Origin: Syntrophobacteraceae bacterium
Lineage (GTDB): Bacteria > Desulfobacterota > Syntrophobacteria > Syntrophobacterales > Syntrophobacteraceae
Direction of reading: 5' to 3'
Length of the DNA: 64,000 nucleotides
Assembly (NCBI GenBank): GCA_031292215.1
Contig: JARLHO010000161.1
Span: 1-64,000 of the forward strand
Part shown: positions 55,141-62,824 of the stretch, one piece after another
How the letters are laid out: every line of letters begins with the position of its first letter
How positions within the stretch are numbered: the stretch's first letter is position 1
Position numbers and translations under genes: made by a program
Notes under the pieces: model-generated
What the model was told of the DNA's origin: nothing
Databases searched by the model: none
Seen by the model: only the letters and a program-made list of their open reading frames with translations

Positions 55141-56259
55141 TCATGATTTGCTCGAAGCCGGGAATGTCAGGATAAAGGTAGAGCCCTCGTTTTCGAGGGT
55201 TTCGACCTCCAGGGTCCCATCGTAGTCCCGGACTATTCCGCAGCTTATGGAAAGCCCAAGGCCTGTGCCCCTGCCAACCCGCTTGGTGGTAAAGAAGGGC
55301 TCGAAGATTTTTTCAAGAAGCGGCCTTGGAATCCCTGTCCCGGTGTCGGCCACTTCGACTCGGACCTTCCCGTCGAAAAGAGCAGTCCTTATAGAAATTG
55401 TTTTTTCCGGGGAATGGATCGATTTTTCGAATTTATCCTCGATGGCGTCCCGGGCGTTTACCAAAAGATTGATAAAGACCTGCTCCAGCCTGTTACTATT
55501 GGCAAGAACCGGAGGGAGATCGGGCTGGAGGTCTTTTTTCACCTCGATATCTCTATGCCTTAGCTGTTGCATAAAAAACGCGAGGGACCGGTTTACGGTG
55601 TCATTTATCGCGACCTTCTCCCTTTTTACCTCGGACATGCGGCCAAATTCGAGCAGGTGGATAATTATCCCCGAAGCCCTGTCCACGTGGCTGTCGATTT
55701 CCTCGGCCATCGCCTTAAGGATATCGTCTCGTATCTGCTCGCCTTTGCGGATCTTTTTTGAAATGAAGCTGCTGGCCGTCTTCATGACCGAAAGGGGTTG
55801 ATTGAGTTCATGGGCGATGGCTGTGGCCATCTCTCCCAGGGTGGCCATCTTGCCGGCCTGTATGAGCTGCTGTTCGACCTGGAGCCTTTTGGTGATGTCG
55901 CTTGTAGTAACCAGATACGCCGCCTCTCCGGCGTATTCGGTGGGAGATATGCGAACGTTTACGTATATCGCCGGTCCGTACCGGGTGATGTGGCGCACCT
56001 GGTTTATCGTTTGCGCCCGCCGGATCTCGCAAGCGAAATCGCGGTTTTTTTCGGGTTCGAAAAGATCGGCGAAGGGCTTTCGCAAGACATCTTCCTTGCG
56101 GTACCCGTAGACGCCAAAGACCCTGTCGTTACAGTCGATGATTTTTAGATCGGAGTCCAGGACAAAGACCGGGTTGGGAACAGTGTTAAACAGTTCCCTG
56201 TATTTTTTCTCCCATCTTTCGATCTGCTCTTCGAGTCTTTGGCGCTCGGCCTCGTCCAC
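55141..56259 (-). CDS. Soluble PAS-domain sensor histidine kinase
   Basis: This is a 372-aa kinase without membrane segments. A PAS domain (about residues 20-125: [20 protein letters not shown]) is followed by a dimerisation domain with the phospho-acceptor His150 ([10 protein letters not shown]). The ATPase domain carries an N box (NLLVNARDA, 264-272), G1 (DTGTGIP, 305-311) and G2 (GTGLGLS, 331-337). GTG at 56259 starts 36 bp after the hdrB stop on the same strand, so it is the distal gene of the hdr operon. No separate response regulator gene is present. The nearest receiver domain is inside the large HdrA. PAS could sense redox or a ligand; no haem or flavin site can be read. Confidence 0.92.
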
Positions 56260-56295: not shown

Positions 56296-57174
56296 CTATT
56301 TCGCCATGGCGGCCAGACGCTGCTTAAACGGGCGGGTGAGAGCCAGGTTTAGGTCGAGGCGCAGACCGCCCCCGGACATGGCGAGGCTTAAGCCCAGCAA
56401 CTGGGGCAGGTACACGATCGATATCTCAAGGGGTCTACCCCGCATCCTGGAAATCTTTTTCTGGCCGGCCTCAAGGTTCATCTGGCACATCGGACACACT
56501 GTCACGATACAGTCCGCGCCTTTTGCCGCATCCAGAAGGTCGGCGACCAGCTCTTGGGCCAACTCCTTTTTAGTGGTCATTAAGCCCGCGCCGCAACATT
56601 TGGCCCCCATGGACCAGTCGAAAACGCTCGCCCCGGTTGCCTCGATCAGCGAATCCATGGAGTGGGGCTGTTCGGGGTCATCGAAGTCGGCAAACGGGCG
56701 AAGGGCCTGGCATCCGTAGTAGGGAGCAACGCGAAGGCCGGGTAAGCTTTGCTTTAGCCCCTCGGCTATGGCGCCTGCGCCGATATCGTTTGCCAGCACA
56801 TCCAGAAGGTGTCTAACCCTTACGCCTCCCCCATAGGAGAGCCCCTCTTCGGCAAGAGCCTCATTTACAAGGCCCCGGGTCTGGGAGTCACGCCCGATCA
56901 GTTGGTCGGCCCTTTTGAGGTTGAGGTAGCAGGAACTGCACGGAACGAGCATGTCGGCCGTTTCTCCCGACTTTTGCGCCAGGGCAAGGTTTCGGGCGGG
57001 CAAAACGATGGAGAGAAGCCTGCTCGCGGTATCCGCGGCACTTGCTCCGCAGCATGTCCAGTCTTCGATCTCCAGCAGCTCGCGGCCCAGAAGTCTCATG
57101 AGCGCCCGCGTCGAAAGGTCGTATTCTTTTGCCGAGTGTTCGAGCGAACATCCCGGGTAGTAGAAATACTTCAC
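56296..57174 (-). CDS. hdrB: Heterodisulfide reductase subunit B
   Basis: This is a 292-aa HdrB. Both CCG domains are complete: C9, C41-C42, C79, C82 and C155, C193-C194, C227, C230, the ligands for the two non-cubane [4Fe-4S] clusters that reduce a disulfide. The organism's disulfide substrate is unknown; bacteria lack CoM-S-S-CoB, and DsrC-like or other thiols are possible (inference). GTG at 57174 overlaps the hdrC stop (GTGA). Confidence 0.94.
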   Translation of the reverse strand: MKYFYYPGCSLEHSAKEYDLSTRALMRLLGRELLEIEDWTCCGASAADTASRLLSIVLPARNLALAQKSGETADMLVPCSSCYLNLKRADQLIGRDSQTRGLVNEALAEEGLSYGGGVRVRHLLDVLANDIGAGAIAEGLKQSLPGLRVAPYYGCQALRPFADFDDPEQPHSMDSLIEATGASVFDWSMGAKCCGAGLMTTKKELAQELVADLLDAAKGADCIVTVCPMCQMNLEAGQKKISRMRGRPLEISIVYLPQLLGLSLAMSGGGLRLDLNLALTRPFKQRLAAMAK

Positions 57175-57740
57175 TGTGCCGCCTCCAGTTCCATGACTTT
57201 TTTATAAAGGCGCTCAAGTTTGCCGCCCCGGGAGACGCCTGGAAGTTGCAACTCCATTTTACCTTTGGCCAGGAGCTTCATTCCAAGCGGCACAAAGCTC
57301 AAAGGGAGCGCCGGGTTTTTTACGGCGAGAAAGTACCGGGTCATCATCTCGGCTTCTCTCACGCGCCCGTATTTGCGCACGGAGTCAAGAAAGGCCTTGT
57401 AGAAAGGCGGGCTCTTGCGGTCGTTCGCATACTTTTCCGCGGTCGCGACCCTTTTTAGGGCCGCCATGGTGTCGGTAAGGGGCAATCCCCTCGGGCACCG
57501 CAGGGTGCAGTAATAGCAGCTCGAACAGAGCCAGAAGGTGCGGCTGGTAAACAGCTCTTCTTTCAGGCCCGATTGCACCATCCTCCAGACCTGCCGGGGC
57601 GTATAGTCCATTTTTGCAGCACTGCCGCACGAACCCGTGCACGTCCCGCACTGCATGCAGGCCCGGAGGTTTTTGGAAATTTCCGAAAACGGGTCCCGGG
57701 CAGAGTGGCCGGGAGCTCCTAAGGCTTGACTGTGAGCCAT
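57171..57740 (-). CDS. hdrC: Heterodisulfide reductase subunit C
   Basis: This 189-aa protein has two [4Fe-4S] ferredoxin motifs: CMQCGTCTGSC (C28, C31, C34, C38) and CSSCYYCTLRC (C72, C75, C78, C82). It passes electrons from HdrA to HdrB. The ATG at 57740 is favoured because the frame further upstream lacks homology and overlaps hdrA. It is 19 bp after hdrA. Confidence 0.93.
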   Translation of the reverse strand: MAHSQALGAPGHSARDPFSEISKNLRACMQCGTCTGSCGSAAKMDYTPRQVWRMVQSGLKEELFTSRTFWLCSSCYYCTLRCPRGLPLTDTMAALKRVATAEKYANDRKSPPFYKAFLDSVRKYGRVREAEMMTRYFLAVKNPALPLSFVPLGMKLLAKGKMELQLPGVSRGGKLERLYKKVMELEAAQ

Positions 57741-57759: not shown

Positions 57760-60700
57760 CTATTCCAGGGCCGCTTCCACCATGGCCATAACCTGCCTGT
57801 CGCCGTAGCCCCGGACAACCGAGGCGGAGTTGGGACAGACAGCGGCGCACGAGCCGCATCCCTGGCAAGCGAGTTCGTCTATTAGGATTCTATCCTCTTC
57901 TTCGCTCCGAGACCTCGCGCCGTAGGGGCACGCGGGGATACACCTTTCGCAAAGAGAACATATACTGCGGCGCACCCGGGCAACGACTGCGCCCGCCTGG
58001 ACCTTTTCCCGGTTAAGCATGACGAGGGCCCGCTGGGCGGCGGCCTGGGCCATGGCGATCGATTCGGGAATCGAGCGGGGGGAGTGGGCGAGGCCGCACC
58101 CAAATATGGCGCGCTTATTGGAGTTTACCGGCTGCCACTTGTATTCGGCTTCCCTGAAAAACCCGTCTTCGTTTGCCTCGATCCCGAACATTTCCCCCGG
58201 TCCGCTAAGATCGTTTGGCACGACCCCGGTGCTAAGGGCCAAAAGGTCGGCTTCGACCACGATGTCTTTTCCAAGGATCGGATCAAGGGCCGAAATCCTG
58301 ATCTTTCCATCGTCTGAGACGAAGACCGCAGGCTTTTGGTCGAGCGAATACCGTATAAAAATTACGCCCTCCTGCCTCGCCTTGGTGTAGTAGGCCTCAA
58401 GAAACCCGTAGGCCATTATGTCGCGGTAGAAAATGAAGACATCGGTTTGCGGGTTTTCCTTTTTGATGCGCAAAGCATTTTTTAGAGCCGAGGAACAGCA
58501 GACGCGACTGCAGTAGTTTCTGCCCGGCTCACGCGAGCCAACGCACTGGATCATGGCAACAGTTCCAAGGTCGGCTGCGGCCGCGCCTTTTTCAAGACGC
58601 GCCTCCAGCTCAAACAGGGTCAGAATGGAATCGCTTGTGCCGTAGCCGTATTCCGTTGTAGCCGCCTCCCTGCCGCCTGTCGCCAAAATCGTAACACCGT
58701 GGTCGAGCTGTTTTGCTTCCCCGTTTTCGGTCTTTATCGTCGTAAGAAAACTTAGCCGTTCATAAGGCTTGGAAGCGATGACTTCGGCGCCGGTGTGGAG
58801 CGAGATATTGGCGTTGGCCCGAACATCGGAGGTAAGCTTTTCGATAACTGCGGCAGTCCGTGCGCCATCGATCATGCGGCAGACACTGCGAGCCAGCCCG
58901 CCGGGCGCACCCTCTTTTTCAACCAGGTCCACCTTGAACCCGTGGTCGGCGATGGCCAAGGCGGCGGTCATCCCCGAGACGCCCCCGCCTATTACAAGCG
59001 CCTTGCGTATTATGCCAAAAGAGGTTGCAGGGGTAGGGTCGGCGGTTTTTAGCCTCCCGATCGACATCTTCATCGCAGATTGGATTCGAGCCGATGCGAG
59101 CAGTGGGTCCGTCTCGCCGGACCGATAGGCCGGGGAGTAAATATCGACTACATCCATCAGTTGCGGGGAAAGCCCCGTCTCTTTAGCCAGGTTAACGAGC
59201 ATCTTCCCGTAGAGGCAGGGCATGCAGGCCCCGATAGAGAGCATGTTGCATCCGCTCTCTTTCATGTTTTGCAAAAGCGCCGTTCTTCCAGACAGCGTGC
59301 AGGCCCTTTCGACCTGAAACACGCGAATCGATGGATCCCACCGGGAAAGACCGGCCCCGAGGGATTCGAGGTCCAGGCCGCCGCGAAGAGGGGTTGCGCA
59401 CGCGCAAAGGGCAACGGCCAGCCGTGGCGAGTCTTTGGAGAGATCCTCGAAGGCGGCCTCGGAAGGGCTGGAGGCAGCCTGTGTTCCGCCCTTTGACCAA
59501 ATGAGTTTGGAGGCTTCCAAAGAAGCCGAGCCGGCCAGGATGAGCGACTCGGAGATGTCTTTTAGACCCGCAAAGGAGCCTCCGGCAAAAACGCCTTCCC
59601 GGGTGCTCCGGGCAAGGTATAGCTCGTCTGTGCGGCAAAATCCCGCGGGGTTTAATTCTATTCCGGCCGATTGCGCAAGGTCTATGGTTCCCTTAGCGGG
59701 TCTTTGCCCCGTGGCCAGAACCACCATATCGAAGACTTCCTCGCGCTGCGCGCCTTTTTCGTCGAGGTAATCGAGCTTTAGAGACCCGTCGGGTTCGGAC
59801 TCGATCGTATGAACGCGGCTCCTTATGAAACGAACCCCCGATACCTTTTCCGCCTCGTCCCGGTAGCGCTGGAAATCTTTGCCGAATGTCCGCATATCCA
59901 TGTAGAAGATGGCCGTCTCGGCTTCGCCGCCCGATTTTTCCCTGGCCAGAAGCGCCTCTTTTATGGAAAACATGCAGCAGGCAGAAGAACAAAAATCGGC
60001 CTTTTGCTGCAAATCTCTAGACCCTATGCACTGGAGCCAGGCAATCTTTCGGGCAGGTCGGCCGTCTGCGGGGCGAATCAGCTTGCCTTCTCCGGGGCCC
60101 GAACCGCTCACCAGCCGTTCGAACTGCAGACCGGTCACAACGTTTGGCAGATTGTAGCCAAAGGCGCCCGGATTTTTTGCCGGGTCGCAAAAGTCGGACC
60201 CCGCGGCCATGATGACCGCCCCGACTTCGATAACCCGCCCGGTCACCGTCACCGTACGTTCATAGTGGCCGACGACCTTGGCGATCAATGCCTCGATATC
60301 AAAGGGCTTCATCAGGTAGTCGGTAGCCCCGAATTTCATCGCCTGCACGGCGGTTTCCACCGTGGCGTAGGCGGTCATCATCAGCACCGGCAGCTCTTCT
60401 TTTATTTCCCGCATGATCTGGAGGGCCTCGACGCCGTCCATTCCGGGCATCTTGACATCCAGGAGCACGAGGCCGTAGTCGTTTGAAGACAAAAGATCTA
60501 TGGCTTCGGCCCCCGACTCGGCCATATCGACGCTAAAGCCTTCCACGAGGAGCCATTCCTTGAGGGAATCGCGCACCACCAGTTCATCGTCTACCACAAG
60601 GATTTTGAAGGCGCGCCGGGCCTCCGAGCGCAGATCGACAGCACCCGTCGGGCAAACCTTCTCGCATTCCCCGCACCGCGTGCAGGCTGCGATATCGATG

Positions 60701-61176
60701 GTAAAGCGGTTGGGAATATTGTGGGGGACGGGAAGATAGATAGCTTTTCGCTTGGACAGTCCCCCGTTAAAGCCATCGGCCACATCCACCGGACAAACCG
60801 CCGAGCACCGCCCGCACCCGATGCACTTTTGGCTATCGATAAAGGAAGGCGCCGAGTCCAGGGTCACTTTGAAGTTTCCCGGCTCACCTTCGAGCGCGGT
60901 CATTTCCGTTGCGGGCAGCACCTCGATATTTTCGTGGAAAAGCCCTTTTCGCAGGCAGAACTGCGACGACGCGTCTCGTCCGATTGTCGGCAGCATCTTG
61001 CACATACCGCAGTGATCGGTTGGGAACTGATAGTCCAACTGGCTGAGTATGCCCCCGATGTGGGGGGATTTGTCTATCAGGAAAACTCGGTAATTCATTT
61101 CAGCGAGATCCAGGGCCGAGCGGATTCCACTGATCCCGGCCCCGATCACCAGGGCTGCACCGGTTTTTGTTTCCAT
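57760..61176 (-). CDS. hdrA: Large HdrA flavoprotein with an embedded response-regulator receiver domain
   Basis: This 1138-aa protein is far larger than the roughly 650 aa of a typical HdrA. In order it has: an N-terminal FAD Rossmann motif (GAGISG, 12-17); ferredoxin clusters CIGCGRCSAVCP (118-129) and CTRCGECEKVCP (165-176); a full receiver domain (about 190-310); an HdrA cluster CIGSRD...CSSACC (383-401); a second Rossmann (VIGGGVSG, 728-735) with a second CVGSRE...CSRVCC cluster (878-894); and C-terminal ferredoxins (1073-1083, 1104-1115). It thus looks like two HdrA halves in one chain. Its neighbours are hdrCB, an FrhB-like subunit, mvhD and another hdrA. Electron bifurcation is likely by family, but not shown. 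Confidence 0.94.
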   Translation of the reverse strand: METKTGAALVIGAGISGIRSALDLAEMNYRVFLIDKSPHIGGILSQLDYQFPTDHCGMCKMLPTIGRDASSQFCLRKGLFHENIEVLPATEMTALEGEPGNFKVTLDSAPSFIDSQKCIGCGRCSAVCPVDVADGFNGGLSKRKAIYLPVPHNIPNRFTIDIAACTRCGECEKVCPTGAVDLRSEARRAFKILVVDDELVVRDSLKEWLLVEGFSVDMAESGAEAIDLLSSNDYGLVLLDVKMPGMDGVEALQIMREIKEELPVLMMTAYATVETAVQAMKFGATDYLMKPFDIEALIAKVVGHYERTVTVTGRVIEVGAVIMAAGSDFCDPAKNPGAFGYNLPNVVTGLQFERLVSGSGPGEGKLIRPADGRPARKIAWLQCIGSRDLQQKADFCSSACCMFSIKEALLAREKSGGEAETAIFYMDMRTFGKDFQRYRDEAEKVSGVRFIRSRVHTIESEPDGSLKLDYLDEKGAQREEVFDMVVLATGQRPAKGTIDLAQSAGIELNPAGFCRTDELYLARSTREGVFAGGSFAGLKDISESLILAGSASLEASKLIWSKGGTQAASSPSEAAFEDLSKDSPRLAVALCACATPLRGGLDLESLGAGLSRWDPSIRVFQVERACTLSGRTALLQNMKESGCNMLSIGACMPCLYGKMLVNLAKETGLSPQLMDVVDIYSPAYRSGETDPLLASARIQSAMKMSIGRLKTADPTPATSFGIIRKALVIGGGVSGMTAALAIADHGFKVDLVEKEGAPGGLARSVCRMIDGARTAAVIEKLTSDVRANANISLHTGAEVIASKPYERLSFLTTIKTENGEAKQLDHGVTILATGGREAATTEYGYGTSDSILTLFELEARLEKGAAAADLGTVAMIQCVGSREPGRNYCSRVCCSSALKNALRIKKENPQTDVFIFYRDIMAYGFLEAYYTKARQEGVIFIRYSLDQKPAVFVSDDGKIRISALDPILGKDIVVEADLLALSTGVVPNDLSGPGEMFGIEANEDGFFREAEYKWQPVNSNKRAIFGCGLAHSPRSIPESIAMAQAAAQRALVMLNREKVQAGAVVARVRRSICSLCERCIPACPYGARSRSEEEDRILIDELACQGCGSCAAVCPNSASVVRGYGDRQVMAMVEAALE
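60247..60609 (-). other. Receiver (REC) domain inside the large HdrA
   Basis: This segment encodes residues about 190-310 of the large HdrA. All receiver hallmarks are intact: the acidic pair D196-D197 (ILVVDDE), phospho-acceptor D240 (LVLLDVKMPGMDG), T268 (MMTAYA) and K290-P291 (YLMKPFD). The reading frame is continuous with HdrA sequence on both sides, directly after the second ferredoxin motif. No DNA-binding output domain is attached. Confidence 0.95.
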
Positions 61177-61196: not shown

Positions 61197-62351
61197 CTAA
61201 TCCTTTCCGCCTGTTACCTCGGAGAATTCCTTCTCTCCAAAGACGGAAAGAGGTGGCTCGTCGTCAAGACTTGCGCCCGCCAGATAGCCGAAGGCCTTCT
61301 GAACTCCATGGGATACGGTTCGGAAAAGCTCGGCCACCGGCACTGCGTTGGGGCAGGCGTTGGAGCATTGCCCGCAGCCGATGCAGGCCGTACTCATATG
61401 GGCCAGGCGAGTCAGATGGTAAAAGACGGTATCGGTGGGCATCTTCAGGGCGCCCTTGCGCTTGGCCCAGCGCAGATATTGGGCCGGTTCGTGATCGAAG
61501 ACATCGGTTGTAAAGACACACTCCCGGCAATAGCAGACCGGGCAGGCCACTCTGCAGTTGTAGCAGTTGACACAGTTGCCAAGGTAACCCATGAGCTTTT
61601 GGACATCGGAGACAGCCTCGGATGTGGCCTCAAACATCTTGTCCCGATAGGCGGTCCGCTCGCTTACAAGGGCGTCCACAGCGCTTTGCCGCAAGGGCTG
61701 GTCACCCTCCTCGACCTCGATGCCAAGACCTCCCAGGACCCGCGCCCCCTTTTCCGTATTGGAAATAAGCAGAAGGCTTTCTTCGATGTTCGCTCCCAGA
61801 AGACCGATACCGATATCGGCGTTCGTTGCGACCGGGTGGTCGCAGGACTTGCACGCCGGGGAGATGTCGGCATCACCTGTCGCTGTCCCTTTTCCGGAGA
61901 GAATGCTTCGGTGGAAGGTAAGGGTGGATTCGGCCCCGGCAGTTGAGGCCGCAATTTTTTGGTAATCGATGTTACCGTAGGTCCCCAGGCAGTCGACGCC
62001 AATAAAGACGACGTTTTCCGCGCTGCCCTGCTTAAGTTTTACCAGTTCGAAAAAGGCTCTTATTTCACAGGGCCTCATTACGGCTGCAATGGGTGCGTCC
62101 AGAGGCTTTCGGGTAAGCCGGGAGAGCATCCGCGCGCCATTTAGCGGGAATGCGGGCGCCAGGGGATCGGCCCCTTCTAGCTTTTCGGGATCGGTCACCA
62201 GCACCGGCATGACCGCTGCGTTTTGAATTGGAAGCCGCTGCTGGACCAGCACCGCCTCAACGGTTCCCTTTTCCAGCAGAAGTTTGAGGAAATTCTGTAG
62301 CGAAGAGACCGGATCGCGGTCCTTTACGGTTATTTTCCCTGTCTTGGACAT
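61197..62351 (-). CDS. FrhB/FdhB-like iron-sulfur subunit
   Basis: This 384-aa protein resembles the beta-subunit family of F420-hydrogenase and formate dehydrogenase. It carries the PCEIRAFFELVKL motif (94-106) and a Cys-rich region CVNCYNCRVACPVCYC (260-275). A C-terminal ferredoxin motif CIGCGQCSNACP (323-334) follows. Family members bind flavin and move electrons between a hydride carrier or formate and ferredoxin-type clusters. The position between mvhD and hdrA suggests it is the electron-entry module. Which donor it uses cannot be read. Confidence 0.85.
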   Translation of the reverse strand: MSKTGKITVKDRDPVSSLQNFLKLLLEKGTVEAVLVQQRLPIQNAAVMPVLVTDPEKLEGADPLAPAFPLNGARMLSRLTRKPLDAPIAAVMRPCEIRAFFELVKLKQGSAENVVFIGVDCLGTYGNIDYQKIAASTAGAESTLTFHRSILSGKGTATGDADISPACKSCDHPVATNADIGIGLLGANIEESLLLISNTEKGARVLGGLGIEVEEGDQPLRQSAVDALVSERTAYRDKMFEATSEAVSDVQKLMGYLGNCVNCYNCRVACPVCYCRECVFTTDVFDHEPAQYLRWAKRKGALKMPTDTVFYHLTRLAHMSTACIGCGQCSNACPNAVPVAELFRTVSHGVQKAFGYLAGASLDDEPPLSVFGEKEFSEVTGGKD

Positions 62352-62380: not shown

Positions 62381-62803
62381 CTACAAAACCATCCGGGTGC
62401 GCAAATCGTTTCGACCAAGCTCTTTTATCTCGGCCGTCATCTGTCTTGCCGTCTCCGCGAAATCGATTCCCTCGCTGGCGCCGATCCAGGTCATCTTCAA
62501 CCTGCGCTCGTCAAAGCCAAACCGGGGAAGAATTTCCTTCAAAAGCTTCATCCTCCGCCTGGCCTTCAGATTACCGTTTATGTAATGACAGTCGCCGGGG
62601 TGGCAGCCGCTCACCAAAACGGCGTCGGCCCCCTCCAAAAGCGCCTTTATGATGTATTTGGGATCGATCATCCCCGTGCACATCATGCGCACCATGCGCA
62701 GGTTCGGAGGCTGCACCAGCCTCGAGGTCCCGGCAAGATCGGCGGCGGTATACGTACACCAGTTGCAAACAAACGCGATAATTGTAGGCTCGTAGTCGGC
62801 CAT
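62381..62803 (-). CDS. MvhD-type [2Fe-2S] hydrogenase/Hdr linker subunit
   Basis: This is a 140-aa MvhD/FlpD family protein. Its CNWC (14-17), C43 and CHPGDC (68-73) motifs supply the [2Fe-2S] ligands. It normally docks an electron-donating enzyme onto HdrA. I chose the ATG at 62803 because GGGAGG lies 5-6 nt upstream; an in-frame GTG at 62821 is less well placed. It sits 21 bp after the upstream hdrA. Confidence 0.92.
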   Translation of the reverse strand: MADYEPTIIAFVCNWCTYTAADLAGTSRLVQPPNLRMVRMMCTGMIDPKYIIKALLEGADAVLVSGCHPGDCHYINGNLKARRRMKLLKEILPRFGFDERRLKMTWIGASEGIDFAETARQMTAEIKELGRNDLRTRMVL

Positions 62804-62824
62804 GTATTCCTCCCGTGACACGCT

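Follow-up and report, generated by a model that had tools for sequence, protein, structure and literature searches.

Can a two-component signal act directly on an electron-bifurcating enzyme? The question is raised by a gene (here hdrA::REC) in the 64,000-nucleotide stretch of Syntrophobacteraceae DNA analysed here (the window), which encodes a receiver domain inside HdrA, the flavin subunit of Hdr complexes. To our knowledge, little has been established about the short-term regulation of electron bifurcation in cells. The first-pass annotation had described a complete receiver lying in frame within an HdrA-like reading frame, and this description holds: the frame runs from an ATG through 1138 amino acids with no internal stop, and PF00072 matches aa 192-301 with 109.9 bits (cut-off 30.2) over positions 1-110 of the 111 of the model, ranking third among the 131 receiver matches of the whole 4.9-Mb genome. 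All the hallmarks of a response-regulator receiver are present, namely two acidic residues, a phospho-acceptor aspartate, a threonine or serine, a lysine and a (beta-alpha)5 fold; D196, D197, D240, T268 and K290 are exactly as first listed, and Y287, the partner of the threonine in receiver switching, is present as well. An AF2 model (10 sequences, mean pLDDT 72) contains the full (beta-alpha)5 receiver at aa 191-310, which is among the better-modelled parts (pLDDT mostly 71-89 in this block). Beta1 of the receiver comes closely after the inserted ferredoxin domain of HdrA, and alpha5 (aa 294-310) lies three residues before a strand of the FAD domain (aa 314-318).

Sequence and fold searches assign both halves of the 1138-aa chain to HdrA, with HdrA structures as the top Foldseek matches, in agreement with the double-length HdrA recognized at first. 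The chain possesses the FAD-binding Rossmann domain with an inserted ferredoxin domain (matches to Pyr_redox_2, NAD_binding_8 and Fer4; alignment with the HdrA of 5ODC and 8RVU), and also the N-terminal cysteine domain and C-terminal ferredoxin domain that are typical of HdrA. The first half (aa 1 to ~565) consists of the FAD domain and the inserted ferredoxin domain, without the N-terminal domain, which is found in the second half (aa 582-724), followed by the C-terminal region (aa 956-1137). C59, invariant among homologues, aligns with C197 of 5ODC; C591, C626 and C651 of the second half are likewise invariant, and by reading of the sequence the second half has no cysteine at the place equivalent to C197. 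The protein thus has the self-complementary pattern of a fused HdrA, with the Cys197 equivalent in one half and the N-terminal cysteine domain in the other. Its scores fall short of the methanogen HdrA/HdrA2 equivalog cut-offs (644 of 1100 bits for NF040770, 516 of 1400 for NF041778 and 511 of 1300 for NF041891). According to the alignment, the receiver takes the place of a linker of ~5 residues (5ODC residues ~313-319) at the point where the chain re-enters the FAD domain; this linker measures 4-5 aa in receiver-less HdrAs of the same family, versus 129-130 aa in the fusions. The placement of the receiver between ferredoxin motifs and the remainder of HdrA is therefore correct, but the motifs (aa ~113-183) are not simply N-terminal: they belong to the inserted ferredoxin domain. 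In structurally solved complexes, low-potential electrons are presumed to leave through this domain, on which MvhB or FmdF docks (PMC12350162; PMC9012536).

The fusion gene is part of an operon with the order hdrL-mvhD-frhB-hdrA::REC-hdrC-hdrB, followed by a PAS histidine kinase gene, all on the minus strand (Table 1). The order of the six genes before the kinase gene recurs in relatives, some loci of which lack adjoining hdrC and hdrB; at L044, L196, L055 and L082 the kinase comes after hdrA::REC with no recognizable hdrC or hdrB between them. Related operons include the same HdrA without a receiver, and the genome of the window itself contains a paralogous fused HdrA without a receiver (L187, G000:C117:26000-38238), which has its own mvhD and constitutes a natural control. 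Beyond the far side of hdrL there is a divergent pair of genes encoding a PAS kinase and an NtrC-type regulator (HK2/RR2), and sigma-54-like sites are found upstream of hdrL in several genomes, suggesting that transcriptional control of the operon probably exists too, besides any post-translational control. One such site, TGGCACACGTATTGCT, is located near HK2/RR2, 341 nt upstream of hdrL (G000:C103 66537, minus strand, beyond the window end).

Table 1. Features of the hdr operon, in order of transcription. Coordinates are those of the window unless stated otherwise.
Feature	Coordinates	Strand	Basis
hdrL, HdrA with NfnB/GltD-like insertion, 1123 aa	62825..64000; continues beyond the window to 66196 of contig C103	-	
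mvhD	62381..62821	-	PF02662, 175.8 bits
FrhB/FdhB-like iron-sulfur protein	61197..62351	-	PF04432; same position in related operons
hdrA::REC, 1138-aa fused double HdrA with receiver	57760..61176	-	ORF; HdrA matches in both halves
Inserted ferredoxin domain of first HdrA half (aa ~108-183), directly before receiver	60628..60855	-	Fer4, aa 113-179; alignment with 5ODC/8RVU HdrA
Receiver domain, aa 192-301 (D196, D197, D240, T268, Y287, K290)	60274..60603	-	PF00072; fold
hdrC	57171..57740	-	TIGR03290, E 2.2e-25, below cut-off
hdrB, two CCG domains, both non-cubane-type Cys motifs	56296..57174	-	PF02754; TIGR03288, E 7e-51, below cut-off
PAS-HisKA-HATPase histidine kinase, 372 aa, H150, soluble	55141..56259	-	Domain matches; orthologues

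An assembly join, which together with absence from close relatives had been named as grounds for discarding the fusion, is excluded, as is a chance continuation of the frame. Fourteen genomes of the same family contain the fusion at 54-100% identity (it is cut by a contig end in one, and another is a single-contig genome), and colinear fusions also occur in seven other groups at family level within the phylum; named Desulfobacterales/Desulfobacteraceae MAGs also possess it. The proposed search of HdrA proteins for an internal PF00072 match finds the fusion conserved with all catalytic residues across these eight groups. Within a sample of 395 genomes of the phylum, 12 encode a fusion with an intact receiver and three more a fusion with a degenerate one; no plasmid copy was detected at E<=1e-40. 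A candidate for a second HdrA-REC type, on contig C177 of G096, was rejected, being an NfnB-type HdrL without a receiver. In a tree of the HdrA core from which the insert was removed (disregarding the rows of HdrL, whose inserts of 316-488 aa are not receivers), the receiver-less relatives fall outside the receiver clade, except for the L187 paralogue, which lies within it on a long branch and has possibly lost its receiver secondarily. A clade with degenerate receivers is nested among the intact ones (97% aLRT), indicating that the ancestral fusion had a receiver that was intact and chemically competent.

The fusion is old, widely conserved and rigidly spliced. None of D196, D197, D240, T268, Y287 and K290 varies across 32 distinct intact sequences, and every one of the 31 intact inserts measured is 129-130 aa long; such strict length, together with the short linkers, favours rigid coupling over a tether. 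Within the genus, dN/dS of the receiver (0.088) is close to that of the preceding FAD/ferredoxin part (0.078), versus 0.14-0.19 for the remainder of the protein exclusive of a 13-residue linker, and on these substitution ratios the receiver is evidently under purifying selection. The degenerate clade comprises four sequences (L060 and L202-L204) that have lost D197, T268 and mostly K290 but still contain, in the equivalent position, an insert 127-138 aa long; to judge from their residues, the receiver chemistry can be lost and in this one clade has been.

In the species of the window a phosphate donor would, judging from gene content, most likely be the PAS kinase at the end of the operon. Its H, N and G boxes are intact and no response regulator gene lies beside it; kinases of this 372-aa type end the operon in six close genomes with the same gene order, and in several other families a longer orthologue comes directly after hdrB or hdrA::REC. 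A kinase orthologue is encoded by 11 of the 12 intact-receiver genomes of the phylum sample, against 19 of the 383 others (Fisher p 8e-13, a value that does not amount to independent evidence, the genomes being related). There are exceptions both ways: G033, a single-contig genome, and the genome of L057 lack a full-length kinase orthologue at E<=1e-60 although their receiver is intact, and G094 and the genome of L060 have a degenerate receiver, yet possess the kinase. A strict rule that the receiver is intact if and only if a heme-type kinase is present was accordingly dropped. The kinase module is also found beside other Hdr clusters without a receiver, and the long orthologues outside the core genus are usually followed by a REC-HATPase gene of their own, which is a rival partner. 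Because of these exceptions and receiver-less clusters, the operon kinase is taken as the best candidate partner in the species of the window rather than a proven one. Long orthologues (L044:8078-10351(-), L046, L051, L055, L059, L061 and L082) have N-terminal membrane segments, a CxxCH motif and a second CH motif, a region that from its motifs is possibly a periplasmic heme-c redox sensor; the kinase of the window species has lost the membrane sensor part.

A receiver of the same type occurs between the two Usp domains of universal-stress proteins encoded beside Hdr operons in two genomes (L057:15166-16485(-) and L197:13707-14987(+)). These USP-REC-USP receivers share 62-63% identity with the HdrA receiver and, with branch support of 83/90, nest in the clade of HdrA receivers. 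HdrA and USP versions are near-identical in the first receiver helix, from which REC-HATPase and RR2 differ. This likeness in sequence fits one shared kinase address that has been reused, with modest support, and such proteins are rare (one of the 395 phylum genomes).

On balance we lean towards a post-translational role, in which phosphorylation of D240 by a histidine kinase, with the receiver at the ferredoxin-exit hinge, tunes the ferredoxin exchange of this Hdr complex. hdrA::REC would be the self-complementary double HdrA subunit of a cytoplasmic HdrL-MvhD-FrhB-HdrA-HdrC-HdrB complex, for which we infer bifurcating activity. A histidine kinase, in the window species most likely the PAS kinase at the operon end, would phosphorylate D240; this would move the output face of the receiver (alpha4-beta5-alpha5), and the movement would in turn shift the ferredoxin exit domain or its docking surface. 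The exit domain would be expected to move, given the tight joins at both ends of the receiver: alpha5 enters the FAD domain within three residues, and beta1 comes closely after the ferredoxin domain. The shifted exit domain could then strengthen or weaken ferredoxin exchange, and with it bifurcation or confurcation, with no need to make new protein. A bolder version, plausible but on the whole doubtful, is that a two-component phosphorelay gates the output of low-potential electrons at this hinge and that the same receiver was copied into the universal-stress protein as part of the same circuit.

Other functions of the receiver have to be weighed against tuning by phosphorylation. It could be a structural or assembly module, a spacer or dimerizing pseudo-receiver, with phosphorylation chemistry irrelevant to the Hdr complex. 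The degenerate clade, which keeps its insert at nearly the same length after losing catalytic residues, is what such a module would predict, but a spacer has no need of the six catalytic and switch residues that the intact sequences preserve, and the nesting of that clade makes the intact form ancestral. A purely structural function is therefore unlikely, although a structural role may exist in addition, given a clade that keeps the domain without the chemistry. The signal could also run in reverse, the redox or occupancy state of Hdr altering a receiver that serves as phosphate sink or redox reporter in a kinase circuit controlling transcription. The adjoining HK2/RR2 pair and the sigma-54-like sites that precede hdrL in several genomes are consistent with this, as is the fact that the nearest receiver to that of HdrA in the window genome is that of RR2 (50%). 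No feature of the sequence requires it, however, and in other families examined HK2/RR2 is not beside the operon, though other NtrC-type regulators often are, making a reversed signal quite improbable.

A further possibility is a docking tag: without allostery, the receiver would recruit the soluble Hdr complex to a membrane kinase whose sensor is periplasmic and heme-type, or to some other site in the cell. Membrane segments at the N-terminus and CxxCH/CHxHP motifs are indeed present in many of the orthologous kinases, and the occurrence of the receiver type in USP-REC-USP would suit a tag, but the kinase of the window species has no membrane sensor part, and the strict insert length and short linkers speak for rigid coupling; we give this possibility little credence. 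Tuning of ferredoxin exchange through D240 remains the preferred reading. If it is true, a genetically encoded post-translational switch is present inside a bifurcating subunit, and in a group of anaerobic bacteria a sensor kinase acts on the Hdr complex itself as well as on its genes. The splice site hints at the mechanism, and nature offers controls, the operon occurring with an intact receiver, a degenerate one or none.

HdrA and the receiver are both known families, and domain insertions in HdrA as well as double HdrAs have been described (PMC9012536). No description of a receiver within HdrA or any other bifurcating enzyme was found in the openly licensed papers searched, in keeping with the annotator's being aware of no characterized example. 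The best solved matches to the receiver region are NtrC-type receivers such as those of NtrC1 (1ZY2) and FleR (7W9H), which have in common with it the fold and all catalytic residues; unlike NtrC-type proteins, hdrA::REC has an electron-transfer enzyme as its output and neither an AAA+ nor a DNA-binding domain. The HdrA of the methanogen HdrABC-MvhADG and Elp-Hdr complexes (5ODC, 8RVU; TM-score up to 0.89, target-normalised) shares with hdrA::REC the FAD-binding thioredoxin-reductase-like domain, the inserted and C-terminal ferredoxin domains and the N-terminal cysteine domain, and differs in lacking the union of two halves in one chain and the internal receiver. The gene order of the operon resembles that of locus VIII of Desulfobacterium autotrophicum (hdrL, mvhD, fdhB, hdrA4, hdrC, hdrB; PMC2702500). 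The fused HdrA3/HdrA4 of ANME archaea and the MetFV-associated HdrA of Moorella (PMC9012536) are, like hdrA::REC, single-chain double HdrAs in which the Cys197 equivalent and the N-terminal domain are split between complementary halves, but in hdrA::REC, a bacterial protein, the halves are in the opposite order and a receiver is present. Large insertions at or near the same ferredoxin domain are known from HdrA9-11 of ANME-1, where NfnB lies in the ferredoxin domain (PMC9012536), and from HdrL of D. autotrophicum (PMC2702500), a type to which the neighbouring hdrL of the window also belongs; those insertions are redox domains, whereas that of hdrA::REC is a signalling domain.
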